A DNA stretch of 32,771 bases, from the NCBI GenBank assembly GCA_027485575.1, contig JAIXQU010000120.1:1-32771 (forward strand), given 5' to 3'. Under the pieces are notes generated by a model. The model saw only the letters and a list, made by a program, of their open reading frames with translations. It made no database searches and was not told the origin of the DNA. Positions 2,872 to 9,345 of the stretch are shown piece by piece (within the stretch, counting starts at the first letter, position 1; every line of letters starts with the position of its first letter). This stretch comes from Cytophagaceae bacterium. GTDB lineage: Bacteria; Bacteroidota; Bacteroidia; Cytophagales; Flexibacteraceae. Both the position numbers and the translations under genes were made by a program.

Positions 2872-2953
2872 TGCGGATGAAGGGACTCGAACCCCCATGC
2901 CTCGCAGCGCTAGATCCTAAGTCTAGTGCGTCTACCAATTTCGCCACATCCGC
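2872..2953 (-). tRNA. tRNA-Leu, anticodon UAG
   Basis: Read on the minus strand, the acceptor arms GCGGATG and CATCCGC pair perfectly. The anticodon stem CTAGA/TCTAG closes the loop CTTAGGA, so the anticodon is TAG, which reads CUN leucine codons. The D-loop motif TTGGTAGACGC and a long variable arm (class II) are typical of tRNA-Leu. The T-loop is TTCGAGT. CCA is not encoded: after the discriminator A comes CAA. Confidence 0.96.
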
Positions 2954-3934: not shown

Positions 3935-4453
3935 TTAAGATATATTTATTTGATGTGGTGGCAGGCCTCTTAAAAAATCAATAACACTTATCACTTTACA
4001 ATCAGATATTTGATATTTATCAATAAATTCTATTAGCATGGACTTTCTAACCACCACCAACAATTGCAATTCCGGGTCCTTGAGAATAATTGCAAGTGAC
4101 TCAGAGAGAATGGAATGAAAGCCGGAGTTTCTCATTTCTAATGGTCCAATTTCATCAAAAACAACAAAACGTAAACCTGATTGGTTCAATCCTTTTGAAA
4201 TTGAATCAATTGCTTTTTCAAAAGCAAGCCTGCTAAATTTATATCTACCGACCTCAAAAGCAGACTCTTGTTCCCTGGCTTCCATTGGCCATTTTTCACC
4301 TGTTTTTGCATCCTCAAAAATTCTACCTCCGATGTCTTTAGGACTTAAAACTCCAAACACGTTCGAAACCTGCTCTTTCCATTTCAAAATTGCAGTAGTT
4401 TTTCCAGAGTTGATCTCGTCTGAAAGTACAACTATCCTATTCATTGTCCGCAT
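3935..4453 (-). CDS. THEP1-like nucleoside triphosphatase (NTPase_1 family)
   Basis: This is a small P-loop NTPase of 172 residues. SDEINSGKTTAI at about 11-22 is a Walker A motif whose usual first Gly is missing. VLSP and GGR follow at about 35-44, and the Walker B motif VVFDEIGPLEMR is at 97-108. DEIGPLE and the early GGR are hallmarks of the THEP1/NTPase_1 family, whose members hydrolyse nucleoside triphosphates in vitro; the cellular role is not settled. The start may be ATG 4453 or ATG 4444. The second overlaps the last codons and stop of the upstream membrane-protein gene (ATGAATAG), which points to translational coupling. I infer that the two proteins act together. Family assignment is likely; function is unknown. 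Confidence 0.75.
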   Translation of the reverse strand: MRTMNRIVVLSDEINSGKTTAILKWKEQVSNVFGVLSPKDIGGRIFEDAKTGEKWPMEAREQESAFEVGRYKFSRLAFEKAIDSISKGLNQSGLRFVVFDEIGPLEMRNSGFHSILSESLAIILKDPELQLLVVVRKSMLIEFIDKYQISDCKVISVIDFLRGLPPHQINIS

Positions 4454-5456
4454 GAAACAGGTTAAAAAGCAGTATTTTCAGAAACAGTTTCAGGTTTGAA
4501 AGCCTGGCACCAGACCTTTTCCATGATTCTACCACCAAAAACTTAACCTCCGGAATTATGGAGTGAATATCGGCAATTTGACCGGCCAGTTCACCTTTTT
4601 TTCCTTTTAGCCATTGCCGGATTATCCTTGTTAAAACAGGCTGAATAATTAAAAACCAGGTACTTAGAATTATAAAAAACCTTAAAATCAACTCGAAAAT
4701 TTTATTTGCTGGCAGAAAAGCTTTTTCAGGTTGCAGCAAGGCCTGAACAAAAAAGAAAACCGCAAAAACCCAAAGCACGAAAATGCCAAGCCTGACCTTT
4801 TTTTGTCTTTTCCCAATCTTTGGAGAAAGAGGTTCTTTCATTGAAATTCCTTGTGTATTTATCTTCATTACTCCATTTTGTTCTTGAAAACTTATTTTGG
4901 AAAGCCTCCAGCCACACCAACCCAGGAATGCCCCAACCAAAAAATGCATGGCCAGATATCCGGCAGCCAATACAATAGAAAACTGGCTAAATTGTTCTAT
5001 TCCAGTGGTTTTTACCAACCAAACATCCACAGCTTCCCAAAACTCAGCGCCATACAAAAAAACCAAAACCAGAATCCTTTGCGTTGCTGACTCCAGCATT
5101 GTAATAATTCCAAACAAGATACTTGCCAAAGCAAAAACTGATTTCCTTTTCAGTAAAAACTCTCCCAAAACACCTTGAAAGAATACGGCCAGATAAGCCG
5201 GTGCCGGACTATGGGGACTTAGCATCATTTTAAAAATGGCAACCAGGATCATTGCCTTAATAACTGAACCTTTTGCTGGAAAATGATGTGCGATTAAAAT
5301 TATGCAAATCATGGCAGAGCCGCCAACAAAAAGTCCGGAAACTGGTAATTTTAAGACGTGAATGATGCCACCAAGGAAAGCTTCAATTAAAATCCAAAGG
5401 GCAATTAGCCTGATATACAGTTTGTTATTAACGGTTTTACTTTCTATTGGAATCAT
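4437..5456 (-). CDS. Polytopic membrane protein of unknown function, coupled to the THEP1-like NTPase
   Basis: The 339-residue protein has about five or six hydrophobic segments in residues 15-185, a hydrophilic linker at about 186-222, and two more membrane segments at about 223-241 and 255-275. A basic helical tail at 280-339 includes ESWKRSGARLSNLK. The N-terminal half, with LPVSGLFVGGSAM, SPHSPAPAYLAVFFQG and a following GE, recalls a substrate-binding (S) component of ECF-type transporters. The tail recalls the coupling helices of an EcfT protein. Both are impressions, not assignments. It overlaps the NTPase gene downstream and starts only 9 bp from the divergent xdhA start, so the two transcription units share regulatory DNA. 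A link to molybdenum, purine or cofactor supply is inference. Confidence 0.75.
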   Translation of the reverse strand: MIPIESKTVNNKLYIRLIALWILIEAFLGGIIHVLKLPVSGLFVGGSAMICIILIAHHFPAKGSVIKAMILVAIFKMMLSPHSPAPAYLAVFFQGVLGEFLLKRKSVFALASILFGIITMLESATQRILVLVFLYGAEFWEAVDVWLVKTTGIEQFSQFSIVLAAGYLAMHFLVGAFLGWCGWRLSKISFQEQNGVMKINTQGISMKEPLSPKIGKRQKKVRLGIFVLWVFAVFFFVQALLQPEKAFLPANKIFELILRFFIILSTWFLIIQPVLTRIIRQWLKGKKGELAGQIADIHSIIPEVKFLVVESWKRSGARLSNLKLFLKILLFNLFHADNE

Positions 5457-5465
5457 GAATCTGAT

Positions 5466-6920
5466 TTGTCAATTTTAGGCGCATCAAATAACCTGATTTT
5501 GATTCGATTCATCCTCAATAAAAAAGAAATTCAGACAGCACTTCCGCCCGGAACATTGCTCCTGGATTTTATTCGGTATCACCAACACCAAATGGGTACC
5601 AAAATTGGTTGCCGGGAAGGTGATTGCGGTGCCTGCTCTGTTTTAGTCGGCGATTTCAAAAATAAAAACCTGCATTATCAATCTGCAACATCTTGTCTTA
5701 CAGCACTTGGCAATGTGCACGGCAAGCATGTAATTTCTATTGAAGGCTTGAACATGGCGGAATTAAACCTTGCCCAACAAGCCATGAAGGACGAATCGGC
5801 AACCCAGTGCGGATTTTGTACACCAGGCTTTGTGGTTTCTCTTTCAGGTTTTTGCCTGACCGAACAGGAACCAACTGAAGAAAATGTTCTGGCTGCCATT
5901 TCAGGAAACATTTGTCGTTGTACCGGATATAAATCCATTGAAAAAGCAGCTGGAACTGTTTGTAAGTCGCTGGAAAACAGAGGAAATGAATCGCCTATTG
6001 ATTTTGCCATCAGAAAAAATTATTTGCCGCAATACCTTACAGAAATTCCAGCCCGATTACTTGCCTTAAAGCAAAATCTGAATGGAGCCTTACAACCAAA
6101 AACAGCAAAACCAAAATTTTTGGGTGGAGGAACGGATTTATATGTGCAGCAACATGAAACCATGCACCATGAAGACATTGACTTTTTATTTGACCAATCA
6201 GACTTAAAAGGCATTGTTCAAAAAGGAGATATTTGTGAAATAGGTGCGGCTTCTACGGTTACAGACATGTTGGAATCGCCTGTTTTTCAGGCATATTTTC
6301 CTAATTTAAAACAAATAGGAAAACTGGTTTCCTCGGAACCAATCCGCAACATTGCAACCATTGCAGGCAATATCATCAATGCTTCTCCTATTGGCGATTT
6401 AAGTATTTTCTTTCTGGCTTTGGATGCAAAAATTCATCTGAAGAATGGAAATGAAAAAAGGATGGTTCCTTTACGTAGTTTATACCTGGGCTATAAAAAT
6501 CTGGACCGGTTGCCAGAAGAAATTGTGGAGAAAATCTCTTTCAAACTTCCTGATGAACAGTCTAAAATAAATTTTGAAAAAGTTTGTAAGCGGACGCATC
6601 TGGACATTGCCTCGGTCAATTCGGCTTTATTTGTAGAACTTGAAGAAAACAAAATTCTCAATGCGGGATTATCTGCCGGAGGCGTTGGACCTGTGCCACT
6701 TTTCCTTCCAAAGAGCTCCGCTTTTCTGTCTGGAAAAACGGTTTCCATTGAACTTTTAGAAGAACTTTTAGAATTGATTCAAACCGAAATCTCACCCATC
6801 AGCGATGTCAGAGGGACCGAAACTTACAAAAGGACATTGTTGCACCAACTTGTAAAAGCACATTTTTCGGTAATGTTTAAAGAGCTGGATGTGAAACAAT
6901 TAATGAATTTATCTCTATGA
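5466..6920 (+). CDS. xdhA: Xanthine dehydrogenase small subunit (2Fe-2S and FAD domains)
   Basis: This electron-transfer subunit of a molybdenum hydroxylase carries two [2Fe-2S] clusters and FAD and passes electrons to NAD. The first cluster ligands are Cys49, Cys54 and Cys57 (GCREGDCGAC) with Cys77. The second cluster has Cys115, Cys118 (QCGFC), Cys150 and Cys152 (NICRC). The FAD domain shows FLGGGTDLYVQQ at about 216-227 and AGNIINASPIGDLS further on, followed by the CO-dehydrogenase flavoprotein C-terminal domain. The start is uncertain: TTG 5466 gives the full frame, while TTG 5499 gives MIRFILNKKE, a natural beginning. The stop overlaps xdhB by 4 bp (ATGA). It is divergent from the membrane protein/NTPase pair. 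Confidence 0.92.
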   Translation: MSILGASNNLILIRFILNKKEIQTALPPGTLLLDFIRYHQHQMGTKIGCREGDCGACSVLVGDFKNKNLHYQSATSCLTALGNVHGKHVISIEGLNMAELNLAQQAMKDESATQCGFCTPGFVVSLSGFCLTEQEPTEENVLAAISGNICRCTGYKSIEKAAGTVCKSLENRGNESPIDFAIRKNYLPQYLTEIPARLLALKQNLNGALQPKTAKPKFLGGGTDLYVQQHETMHHEDIDFLFDQSDLKGIVQKGDICEIGAASTVTDMLESPVFQAYFPNLKQIGKLVSSEPIRNIATIAGNIINASPIGDLSIFFLALDAKIHLKNGNEKRMVPLRSLYLGYKNLDRLPEEIVEKISFKLPDEQSKINFEKVCKRTHLDIASVNSALFVELEENKILNAGLSAGGVGPVPLFLPKSSAFLSGKTVSIELLEELLELIQTEISPISDVRGTETYKRTLLHQLVKAHFSVMFKELDVKQLMNLSL

Positions 6921-9187
6921 AAAATATTGATTCAAATTCGCATCTCAGGGGTGAATCCATTTATCTGGATGATGTTCCTTTGGTGGCCGGGACGCTTTTT
7001 GCTGCAGCTTTTGGTTCGCCCCATGCCCATGGAAAAATTCTGAATCTTGACCTAAGCGAGGCAGAAAAAATGCCAGGCGTAGCTCGGATTTTCACTTACA
7101 AGGATGTGCCCGGCGAAAATCAAATTGGCGGAATTGTGCCAGATGAGCCGCTTCTGGCTGAACATCATGTGCATTTTCAGGGCATGCCGGTTGCTTTGGT
7201 CGTAGCAGAAAGTGTGGAAGAGGCCAAAATGGCCATGAAAAAAATTAAGATTGACATTGAGCCATTACCCATCATTACAGATCCCCGGGTTGCCAGAGAA
7301 AAAGGCGAATTGATAGTTCCTCCACGCACCTTTAAGATTGGGGATGTGGATGCAGCCTGGAGCCAATGCGCTCATATTGTGGAGGGTACGGCAGATACTA
7401 ATGGACAGGAACACTTATATATTGAAACCCAGGGCGCTTATACTTTTCCCCTTGAAAACGGGTCTATTCGGATAATTTCCTCTACGCAAGGCCCAACTGC
7501 TGTGCAAAGGCATGCAGCCATCTGCCTCGGAATTCCCATGCACATGCTGGAGGTGGATGTTACCCGATTGGGCGGCGGATTTGGCGGAAAAGAAGACCAG
7601 GCTTCCATGTGGGCCATTTTGTGTGCGTTGGCAACTTACCATCTGAAACGACCAGTAAAATACAGTCTGGACCGGATGGAAGATATGCGGATGACAGGCA
7701 AGAGAAATCCGTATTCCTCAGATTTTAAAATCGGTCTGGATAAGGACCTCAATATCATTGCCTACGAATCCACCTATCACCAAAATGCGGGTGCTGCGGC
7801 AGACCTTTCACCTGCGGTATTGGAGCGGACTTTGTTTCACAGTACCAACAGTTATTTTGTTCCAAACGTAAAAGCGACTGCGTATTCCTGCCGCACAAAT
7901 TTGCCTCCTAATACTGCTTTCCGTGGTTTTGGTGGCCCGCAAGGCATGTTTGTCATAGAGGCGGCAATTCACAAAGCTGCAGAAACGATTGGCGTGCCTG
8001 CCTGGGAAATTCAATCCAGAAATCTGATAAAAACCGGTGATGAATTTCCATTTGGGCAAATAGCGGAAAGCGAAGCAAAGGAATGTTGGGTGGTTGCAAA
8101 CCAGATTTTCGAACCCGAAAAAATCGAAAAGGAAATAAAAGCTTTCAACGCTGAAAATGTCCTTTTCAAAAAAGGCATGTCTTTTATGCCCATTTGCTTT
8201 GGCATTTCTTTTACGAAAACGCCTATGAATCAGGCTCGTGCCCTCGTTCATGTATATACTGATGGTTCTGTTGGGGTGAGTACTGGCGCAGTAGAAATGG
8301 GCCAGGGCGTCAATACGAAGATGCTTCAGGTGGCAACTCAGATTTTTTCAATCCATCCCAACCGGGTTAAAATTCATACAACCAATACTTTTCGAATAGC
8401 CAATACTTCTCCTTCTGCTGCATCGGCTACGGCTGACTTAAACGGAAAGGCAGTTGAAATCGCATGCAATGCCATTTTAGACAGACTCAAAACCATCACT
8501 GCAGAGAAATTTTCTGTTTCCGAAACGGAGGTTTCCATTGACAATGAAGAAGTTCTGATTAAAGGAAGTCCAGTTGGATACAATTGGTCTCAGCTCATTC
8601 AGGATGGATATTTGAAACGCATTGCCCTTTCTGAACATGGGCATTATGCACCTCCCGGTTTGCACTACGATGCCAAAATTGAAAAGGGTCATCCTTTTGC
8701 CTACCATGTGTTTGGAACGGCGATTACAGAAGTAACGGTCGACTGCCTTAGAGGTACCTATCTGGTTAATTCTGTGAAAATTGTGCATGATTTTGGGACC
8801 AGTATGAACACAGCCATTGACCGCGGACAAATAGAAGGCGGCCTTGTGCAGGGCATCGGTTGGATGACACTTGAAGAAATCGTGTATGATGAAAATGGCC
8901 GCTTGCGTTCCAATGCACTTTCCACCTATAAAGTGCCTGATATCTATTCCGTTCCAAAAGAAATTGACATCAAATTTCTGAAAACAGAGAAGGACAATAT
9001 GGCCATTCTGAAATCAAAAGCTGTGGGAGAACCGCCACTCATGTACGGAATCGGGACTTATTTTGCCCTTAGAAATGCCATCAAAGCATACCGGCCGGAT
9101 GCTGAAATGGAGTATGCCACACCGATGACACCCGAAAGAGTTTTGATGGGATTGGTGGGGAAGAAGCAAGAAAAAGTGACTGTATAA
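6917..9187 (+). CDS. xdhB: Xanthine dehydrogenase molybdopterin-binding subunit
   Basis: This is the catalytic subunit that binds the molybdenum cofactor and hydroxylates purines such as hypoxanthine and xanthine. The 756 residues include the MoCo contacts GGGFGGKE (219-226) and VEMGQG. By family alignment from memory, Glu255 in DRMEDM matches bovine E802, Arg336 in FRGFGGPQG matches R880, and Glu705 in VGEPPL matches the catalytic E1261. Keeping all three favours a true xanthine dehydrogenase over an aldehyde or CO enzyme. The start ATG overlaps the xdhA stop, so the subunits are translationally coupled. No xdhC-type sulfuration or insertion gene and no MoCo synthesis gene follows in the window. 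Confidence 0.93.
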   Translation: MKNIDSNSHLRGESIYLDDVPLVAGTLFAAAFGSPHAHGKILNLDLSEAEKMPGVARIFTYKDVPGENQIGGIVPDEPLLAEHHVHFQGMPVALVVAESVEEAKMAMKKIKIDIEPLPIITDPRVAREKGELIVPPRTFKIGDVDAAWSQCAHIVEGTADTNGQEHLYIETQGAYTFPLENGSIRIISSTQGPTAVQRHAAICLGIPMHMLEVDVTRLGGGFGGKEDQASMWAILCALATYHLKRPVKYSLDRMEDMRMTGKRNPYSSDFKIGLDKDLNIIAYESTYHQNAGAAADLSPAVLERTLFHSTNSYFVPNVKATAYSCRTNLPPNTAFRGFGGPQGMFVIEAAIHKAAETIGVPAWEIQSRNLIKTGDEFPFGQIAESEAKECWVVANQIFEPEKIEKEIKAFNAENVLFKKGMSFMPICFGISFTKTPMNQARALVHVYTDGSVGVSTGAVEMGQGVNTKMLQVATQIFSIHPNRVKIHTTNTFRIANTSPSAASATADLNGKAVEIACNAILDRLKTITAEKFSVSETEVSIDNEEVLIKGSPVGYNWSQLIQDGYLKRIALSEHGHYAPPGLHYDAKIEKGHPFAYHVFGTAITEVTVDCLRGTYLVNSVKIVHDFGTSMNTAIDRGQIEGGLVQGIGWMTLEEIVYDENGRLRSNALSTYKVPDIYSVPKEIDIKFLKTEKDNMAILKSKAVGEPPLMYGIGTYFALRNAIKAYRPDAEMEYATPMTPERVLMGLVGKKQEKVTV

Positions 9188-9247
9188 GAGCAAAGATAAG
9201 AATTTGGGGCTGCCCTTCGTGCCTCAGGTCGGGCCAACCATTCCAAT

Positions 9248-9272
9248 CTTTTGTTTCGTTCCTAAACAAAAG
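9248..9272. repeat. Perfect 9-bp inverted repeat
   Basis: CTTTTGTTT (9248-9256) and AAACAAAAG (9264-9272) are exact reverse complements around a 7-nt loop. It lies 60 bp past the xdhB stop. No T-run follows on either strand, so it is a poor terminator; it may belong to a dispersed repeat family. Confidence 0.7.
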
Positions 9273-9345
9273 GATTTCCACTCATGTCCCTCAGCCAGCT
9301 AAACCCAGGTTCCAGAATAAAACCAGCTGTATGGGTTCAGTAATA

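Follow-up and report, generated by a model that had tools for sequence, protein, structure and literature searches.

A probable importer of finished molybdenum cofactor, resembling energy-coupling factor transporters, encoded beside xanthine dehydrogenase genes in a Cytophagaceae bacterium

The stretch of DNA analyzed in this work is contig JAIXQU010000120.1 of the Cytophagaceae bacterium assembly GCA_027485575.1 (32,771 nucleotides in total; hereafter the window). It contains a gene for a membrane protein with an N-terminal half similar to the S components of energy-coupling factor (ECF) transporters (S-like) and a C-terminal half referred to as T-like, together with a gene for a THEP1-type nucleoside triphosphatase (NTPase). 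These two genes, hereafter the module, are divergent from xdhA and xdhB, which encode a xanthine dehydrogenase (XDH; Table 1). An earlier note on this locus suggested an uptake or insertion module for molybdenum (Mo), its cofactor, or a purine. We propose that the module is probably an ECF-like inner-membrane importer of the finished molybdenum (or tungsten) pterin cofactor (Moco).

As the note had described, the two module genes overlap. The stop of the membrane-protein gene falls within ATGAATAG, and the first ATG of the NTPase open reading frame (ORF) is located 9 nt further upstream, which makes the overlap either 8 or 17 bp long. The 9-bp spacing to xdhA holds if it is counted from the membrane-protein ATG (5456) to the earliest possible xdhA start (TTG 5466). 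However, the TIGR02963 match to the xdhA product begins only at residue 13, so the true start is uncertain and the gap may be up to ~40 bp. Both XdhA and XdhB have the expected domains, and their sequence motifs (GGGFGGKE, FRGFGGPQ, GQG, and GEPPL) and 2Fe-2S cysteines are intact, which suggests that they are working molybdoenzyme subunits; their scores of 338 and 780 bits fall short of the respective NCBIfam equivalog cut-offs, 467 and 849.5. This XDH is a likely client of the imported cofactor.

Table 1. Coordinates of the module, the adjoining genes, and the small proteins encoded 5' of related module genes (window positions unless a locus is named; FAD, flavin adenine dinucleotide; pLDDT, predicted local distance difference test)
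Feature	Position	Strand	Evidence or remark
Membrane-protein gene, S-like/T-like fused, 339 aa	4437..5456	-	ORF call; model pLDDT 87.3
S-component-like N-terminal domain, residues 5-189	4890..5444	-	VIA-align, hhalign, conservation
T-like C-terminal domain, about residues 223-334	4455..4790	-	hhalign to separate T-like proteins; model helices
THEP1-type NTPase (PF03266), 172 aa; alternative start 4444	3935..4453	-	Pfam match, structure match
9-bp gap between divergent starts of membrane-protein gene and xdhA	5457..5465	.	xdhA start uncertain
xdhA, XDH small subunit-like (2Fe-2S, FAD)	5466..6920	+	domains, motifs
xdhB, XDH molybdopterin-binding subunit-like	6917..9187	+	domains, intact cofactor-binding motifs
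AhpD-like small proteins	L060:1741-2085, L069:4237-4587, L078:7380-7799, L088:6162-6491		

The membrane protein has no match in Pfam, NCBIfam, or the PDB sequences, and profiles of the S-like, T-like, and fused proteins gave no relevant match against the PDB. An AlphaFold2 model built on 50 aligned sequences was confident (mean pLDDT 87.3; predicted template modeling score 0.85). When the model was compared with known structures by VIA-align, ECF S components took all of the top ten places, aligning to residues 5-189; across 147-174 residues at 4-6 Å, their Z values ran from 10.9 to 7.7 (the best, 5edl, had Z 10.9 over 167 residues), with unrelated chains appearing from Z 7.7. Values of Z below 13 can be common among helical folds and bundles, but the S-component fold is persuasive because all ten top chains belong to one family. 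Foldseek alone was weak for this protein, with FolT (4z7f) as the best match at E 0.36. The model supports the fold of vitamin-transporter S components for the N-terminal half, in agreement with the earlier note. All of the 10 residues that are invariant in 50 relatives (W21, E25, G29, G30, H33, P38, G41, K76, P81, and P84) are located in this half. The C-terminal half, in which the note had seen coupling-type helices, has one or more membrane helices plus amphipathic helices in the model; this assignment holds through homology to a T-like protein only, with no recognizable sequence match to EcfT. By hhalign, the N-terminal half is homologous to S-like proteins encoded separately in other genomes (E 5e-24), and the C-terminal half to separate T-like proteins (E 1.5e-6, probability 90).

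The NTPase matches PF03266 (43.9 bits, cut-off 23.9) and has no match when its sequence is searched against the PDB. Its model matches the THEP1 folds 2i3b (E 9e-7) and 1ye8 (E 5.5e-6), which bears out the assignment to the THEP1 family rather than to the ATP-binding cassette (ABC) type. The Walker A motif reads SDEINSGKTT. The first Gly, present in most relatives, is replaced by Asp, but GKTT and the Walker B DE are retained, such that the description of this motif as degenerate applies to a single change.

The decisive support for an uptake module that works with molybdenum enzymes came from outside the window, namely, from split operons, a riboswitch, and genome-wide co-occurrence. Seven genomes encode the two halves as separate, overlapping genes of one operon (S-like, ~200 aa; T-like, ~182 aa). 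In these operons, the T-like gene is followed by a gene for a TonB-dependent receptor (~640 aa), and four of the seven have the NTPase as well. The split operons adjoin genes for molybdenum enzymes of the NapA, dimethyl sulfoxide (DMSO)-reductase II, and ArrA types, all exported by the twin-arginine translocation pathway, and MobA follows the operon at locus L088. In a distant genome (L091), one ORF of 557 aa contains the S-like region, the T-like region, and the NTPase, with ygfK/ssnA-type genes beside it; this natural fusion is direct evidence that the three parts work together. Second, more divergent S-like proteins are encoded at L090:3852-4436 and L092:3762-4352; they are found next to cytochrome and sensor genes without a T-like partner or riboswitch and possibly serve another substrate.

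An unbiased Rfam scan placed the Moco riboswitch (RF01055) 5' of the S-like gene in every one of the seven split operons. An additional aptamer (68.6 bits) is located 5' of an operon for a TonB receptor, a fused membrane protein, and the NTPase at L105, where an apparent frameshift in the receptor coincides with an N in the assembly. The covariance-model scores across these eight operons were 53-97 bits (threshold 36), and no other RF01055 match was found across the scanned loci, which come close to a megabase in total. Between each aptamer and the first gene, there is a terminator-like hairpin with a T run, and this arrangement resembles the layout of an off-switch. Positions of the P3 stem are missing in L088, and all eight aptamers are short in the equivalent region. 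RNAs that lack P3 have been associated with tungsten cofactor (Regulski et al., 2008; PMC2408646); because the aptamers lack P3, the ligand may be either the molybdenum or the tungsten form.

For genome-wide co-occurrence, we compared a panel of 79 genomes, including 42 with the module and 37 without. The panel was sampled by module status, so odds ratios stay unbiased. MoaC and MoeA were searched as markers of the cofactor pathway and ModB as the marker of molybdate import; DMSO reductase (DMSOR)-type enzymes were counted by PF01568 at ~40 bits or more, with frames of ~1000 aa that have short partial matches left out. The window's genome (completeness 100, contamination 0.29) has XDH, and no match to MoaC, MoeA, ModB, or MOSC was found in it. 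In the panel, 53 of the 79 genomes are MoaC-negative. Among these, XDH/DMSOR-type enzymes are present in 19/29 genomes with the module versus 0/24 without (Fisher 2e-7), and the same contrast by genus gave 17/26 v 0/20 (1.9e-6). Among the enzyme-bearing genomes, the module is found in all 19 that are MoaC-negative versus 13 of the 26 MoaC-positive ones (p 1.6e-4). MoeA was undetected too in 27 of the 29 MoaC-negative module genomes (the exceptions are G439 and G730), and ModB scored well (at least 140 bits) in one of these 29 versus 10/26 among the MoaC-positive genomes. Assembly gaps can be ruled out as the cause of these absences because single-contig genomes are included (G509 and G517). 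All 10 module genomes that lack both MoaC and XDH/DMSOR enzymes have a MOSC match. An exception to the overall pattern is G412, which has MOSC only.

These absences bear on the substrate. Of the three substrates that the earlier note had offered, the cofactor is the best fit, whereas molybdate and a purine are disfavored. An importer of molybdate or tungstate, turned into cofactor inside the cell, is unlikely. Molybdate transporters are also found under Moco riboswitches (PMC2408646), MoaC is present in 13/42 module genomes, and most module genomes have no good ModB match. However, with the Mo insertase MoeA undetected in nearly all MoaC-negative module genomes, molybdate would be useless to these cells. 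Moreover, a TonB receptor fits a large, scarce ligand better than a small oxyanion, and small organic molecules are the usual substrates of known S components. An importer of a Mo-free precursor (cyclic pyranopterin or molybdopterin), which the cell would then complete, is about equally improbable. The two module genomes with MoeA but without MoaC fit such a supply, as do the linked MobA and MocA, which work on late intermediates, but Mo insertion looks impossible in most MoaC-negative module genomes because MoeA is undetected and good ModB matches are rare there.

NTPase_1 matches of at least 30 bits are present in at least 29/42 module genomes versus 1/37 of the others (p 2e-10). Two of the 29 were counted from locus inspection: no more than 39 candidates were scored in each genome, and two NTPases visible at their loci went undetected. 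In genome G703, an NTPase_1 gene directly adjoins a MOSC gene (contig C37:17794-18730); the membrane protein is encoded elsewhere, on C166.

Relatives of the membrane protein were collected by profile search (profile A3 was too diverse and profile A4 worked); a single-protein scan of genome contigs found none. The profile searches found the membrane protein in 13/390 genomes of the order and 33/395 of the phylum. The 62 named loci are mostly from Ignavibacteria (Melioribacteraceae and Ignavibacteriaceae), with others from Pontibacter, Hymenobacter, and Ferruginibacter. The usual unit in the window's order is MOSC, membrane protein, and NTPase; a congener of the window organism has XdhC, membrane protein, and NTPase, and the order at L102 is membrane protein, NTPase, MocA, and XdhC. 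MobA-like and molybdopterin oxidoreductase genes are found at L106 and L101, and Mo hydroxylase genes at L072, L019, L094, and L134. The frequent neighbors are thus MOSC, XdhC, MobA, MocA, and XDH; the first four act downstream of molybdopterin, and the other neighbors are molybdoenzymes.

Among 83 dereplicated loci, the NTPase is located within 200 bp in 38 and some Mo gene within 5 kb in 28, including a Mo hydroxylase in six; these counts are lower bounds because many contigs are short. By the refuting condition that the earlier note had set, the link to Mo hydroxylases alone is weak. Mo genes thin out only modestly with distance from the module, from 7% of ORFs inside 3 kb to 2-5% farther away, and gene neighborhood alone is suggestive only and insufficient for the import claim.

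The neighborhoods also bear on two further explanations. That the pair imports a purine for XDH is extremely improbable: the module is divergent from xdhAB in the window, and purine-type hydroxylase clusters are found near L065, L066, and L074, but relatives adjoin nitrate-, arsenate-, thiosulfate-, and DMSO-reductase-type enzymes, MOSC, and MobA, and related operons sit behind Moco riboswitches. It is also very unlikely that the membrane protein and NTPase form a membrane complex for cofactor handling or insertion without transport, in which the NTPase would be MobB- or chaperone-like. XdhC, MOSC, and MobA do adjoin the module, the NTPase has weak similarity to MobB (E 0.06-0.1), and THEP1-family proteins are described as slow NTPases of unknown cellular role (PMC2700126). 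However, an insertion module, as also raised by the earlier note, does not explain the S-component fold, the TonB receptor within the operon, or the presence of the module where biosynthesis is missing.

Several other genes recur near the module. A small AhpD/carboxymuconolactone-decarboxylase-like protein (identified by eye) is encoded directly 5' of the membrane-protein or S-like gene in four loci (Table 1) and is possibly a redox partner; in L088, its gene is flanked by the Moco riboswitch and the S-like gene. Genes for a PhsA-like Mo enzyme and for 4Fe-4S, NrfD-like, and YedE-like proteins recur 3-5 kb off the module on the opposite strand (L063, L067, L070, L073, L076, and L077). The hemE gene beside L018 and L029 is regarded as a bystander, and so are the sugar-nucleotide genes that adjoin many loci from Ignavibacteria.

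Import of the finished cofactor accounts most simply for these observations, and we infer the substrate, the direction of transport, and the role of the NTPase as follows. In split versions, the TonB-dependent receptor would carry the cofactor over the outer membrane. The S-like half would capture it on the outer side of the inner membrane, and the T-like half would anchor the S-like half and relay energy from the THEP1-type NTPase on the inner face, by analogy with the ECF module that drives vitamin S components. The NTPase is the likely motor, and this is the least certain step. Inside the cell, the cofactor would be tailored by MobA, MocA, and XdhC and inserted in apo-enzymes, e.g., the neighboring XDH. 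Once the cofactor is plentiful, the Moco riboswitch and terminator may switch the operon off as feedback.

Some observations weigh against an importer of the finished cofactor. Free Moco is described as very unstable (PMC9793310). Neither the window nor about 60 other fused loci have RF01055, and L105 is the only fused locus that does. Half of the 26 MoaC-positive panel genomes carry the module as well, and 13/42 module genomes have no NTPase_1 match of at least 30 bits among the candidates scored. The T-like half has a sequence match only to its T-like partner, and nothing in Pfam, NCBIfam, or the PDB sequences ties it to EcfT. Finally, G001 and G005, which lack MoaC, MoeA, and the module, show a weak match to the sulfite-oxidase family (~70 bits); these two genomes may be exceptions or a sign of another import route.

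Elsewhere in the window, a Flavo-1 small RNA (RF01705, 47.2 bits; 9223-9304, minus strand) is located just 3' of xdhB. A transfer RNA gene (2872-2953, minus strand) is found between a GTG-started ORF (1457-2803), which is trigger-factor-like by eye, and a fatty acid desaturase gene.

The prevailing view is that cells requiring Moco must make their own, and uptake is contrary to this view (PMC9793310). Peng et al. (2018) listed 292 bacteria (305 with nitrogenase carriers) that have molybdoenzymes without a complete Moco pathway, a pattern left unexplained (PMC6147048). Our literature searches, made in an open-access library, uncovered no report of a bacterial importer, of salvage, or of auxotrophy for Moco. 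The module may well be the first bacterial importer of finished Mo/W cofactor, representing a new ECF-like class in which a THEP1-type NTPase replaces the ABC ATPase, with Moco as a "vitamin" that many Bacteroidota and Ignavibacteria scavenge. If true, this would explain at least part of the published "orphan molybdoprotein" organisms, make Moco a shared good within microbial communities, and give THEP1-family NTPases their first biological role. Such a route of cofactor delivery would also be of interest for Moco deficiency.

Compared with known systems, the module shares with ModABC the service to molybdenum enzymes and possible control by the Moco riboswitch, but the proteins are unrelated, and ModABC has no match in the window's genome and would bring no benefit in the absence of Moco biosynthesis. 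Caenorhabditis elegans, an animal, likewise acquires finished cofactor from other organisms through its diet (PMC9793310); the word "transporter" is absent from the text of that paper. Regarding THEP1/NTPase_1 proteins (PF03266; 1ye8 and 2i3b), the module NTPase is above the Pfam cut-off and has these as its closest solved folds, but it is tied to a membrane protein through overlap or fusion, whereas the function of the family is otherwise unknown. The likeness to ECF vitamin transporters (S components YkoE, RibU, FolT, and PanT) includes the S fold of the N-terminal half, a membrane partner that is separate or fused, an NTP-hydrolyzing partner, and uptake in place of biosynthesis. The differences are that the module locus encodes a THEP1-type NTPase and no ABC-type EcfA ATPase, that the partner is unrecognizable as EcfT by sequence, that S and T are often fused, and that the predicted substrate is Moco. 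With the S fold present and the ABC ATPase absent from the locus, we class the module as a variant of ECF transporters set apart from their members. Lastly, vitamin B12 uptake (BtuB and the cobalamin riboswitch) differs in its unrelated inner-membrane parts, its cofactor, and its riboswitch class, but has in common with the proposed system a TonB receptor, an inner-membrane importer, a cofactor-sensing riboswitch, and scavenging by non-producers.

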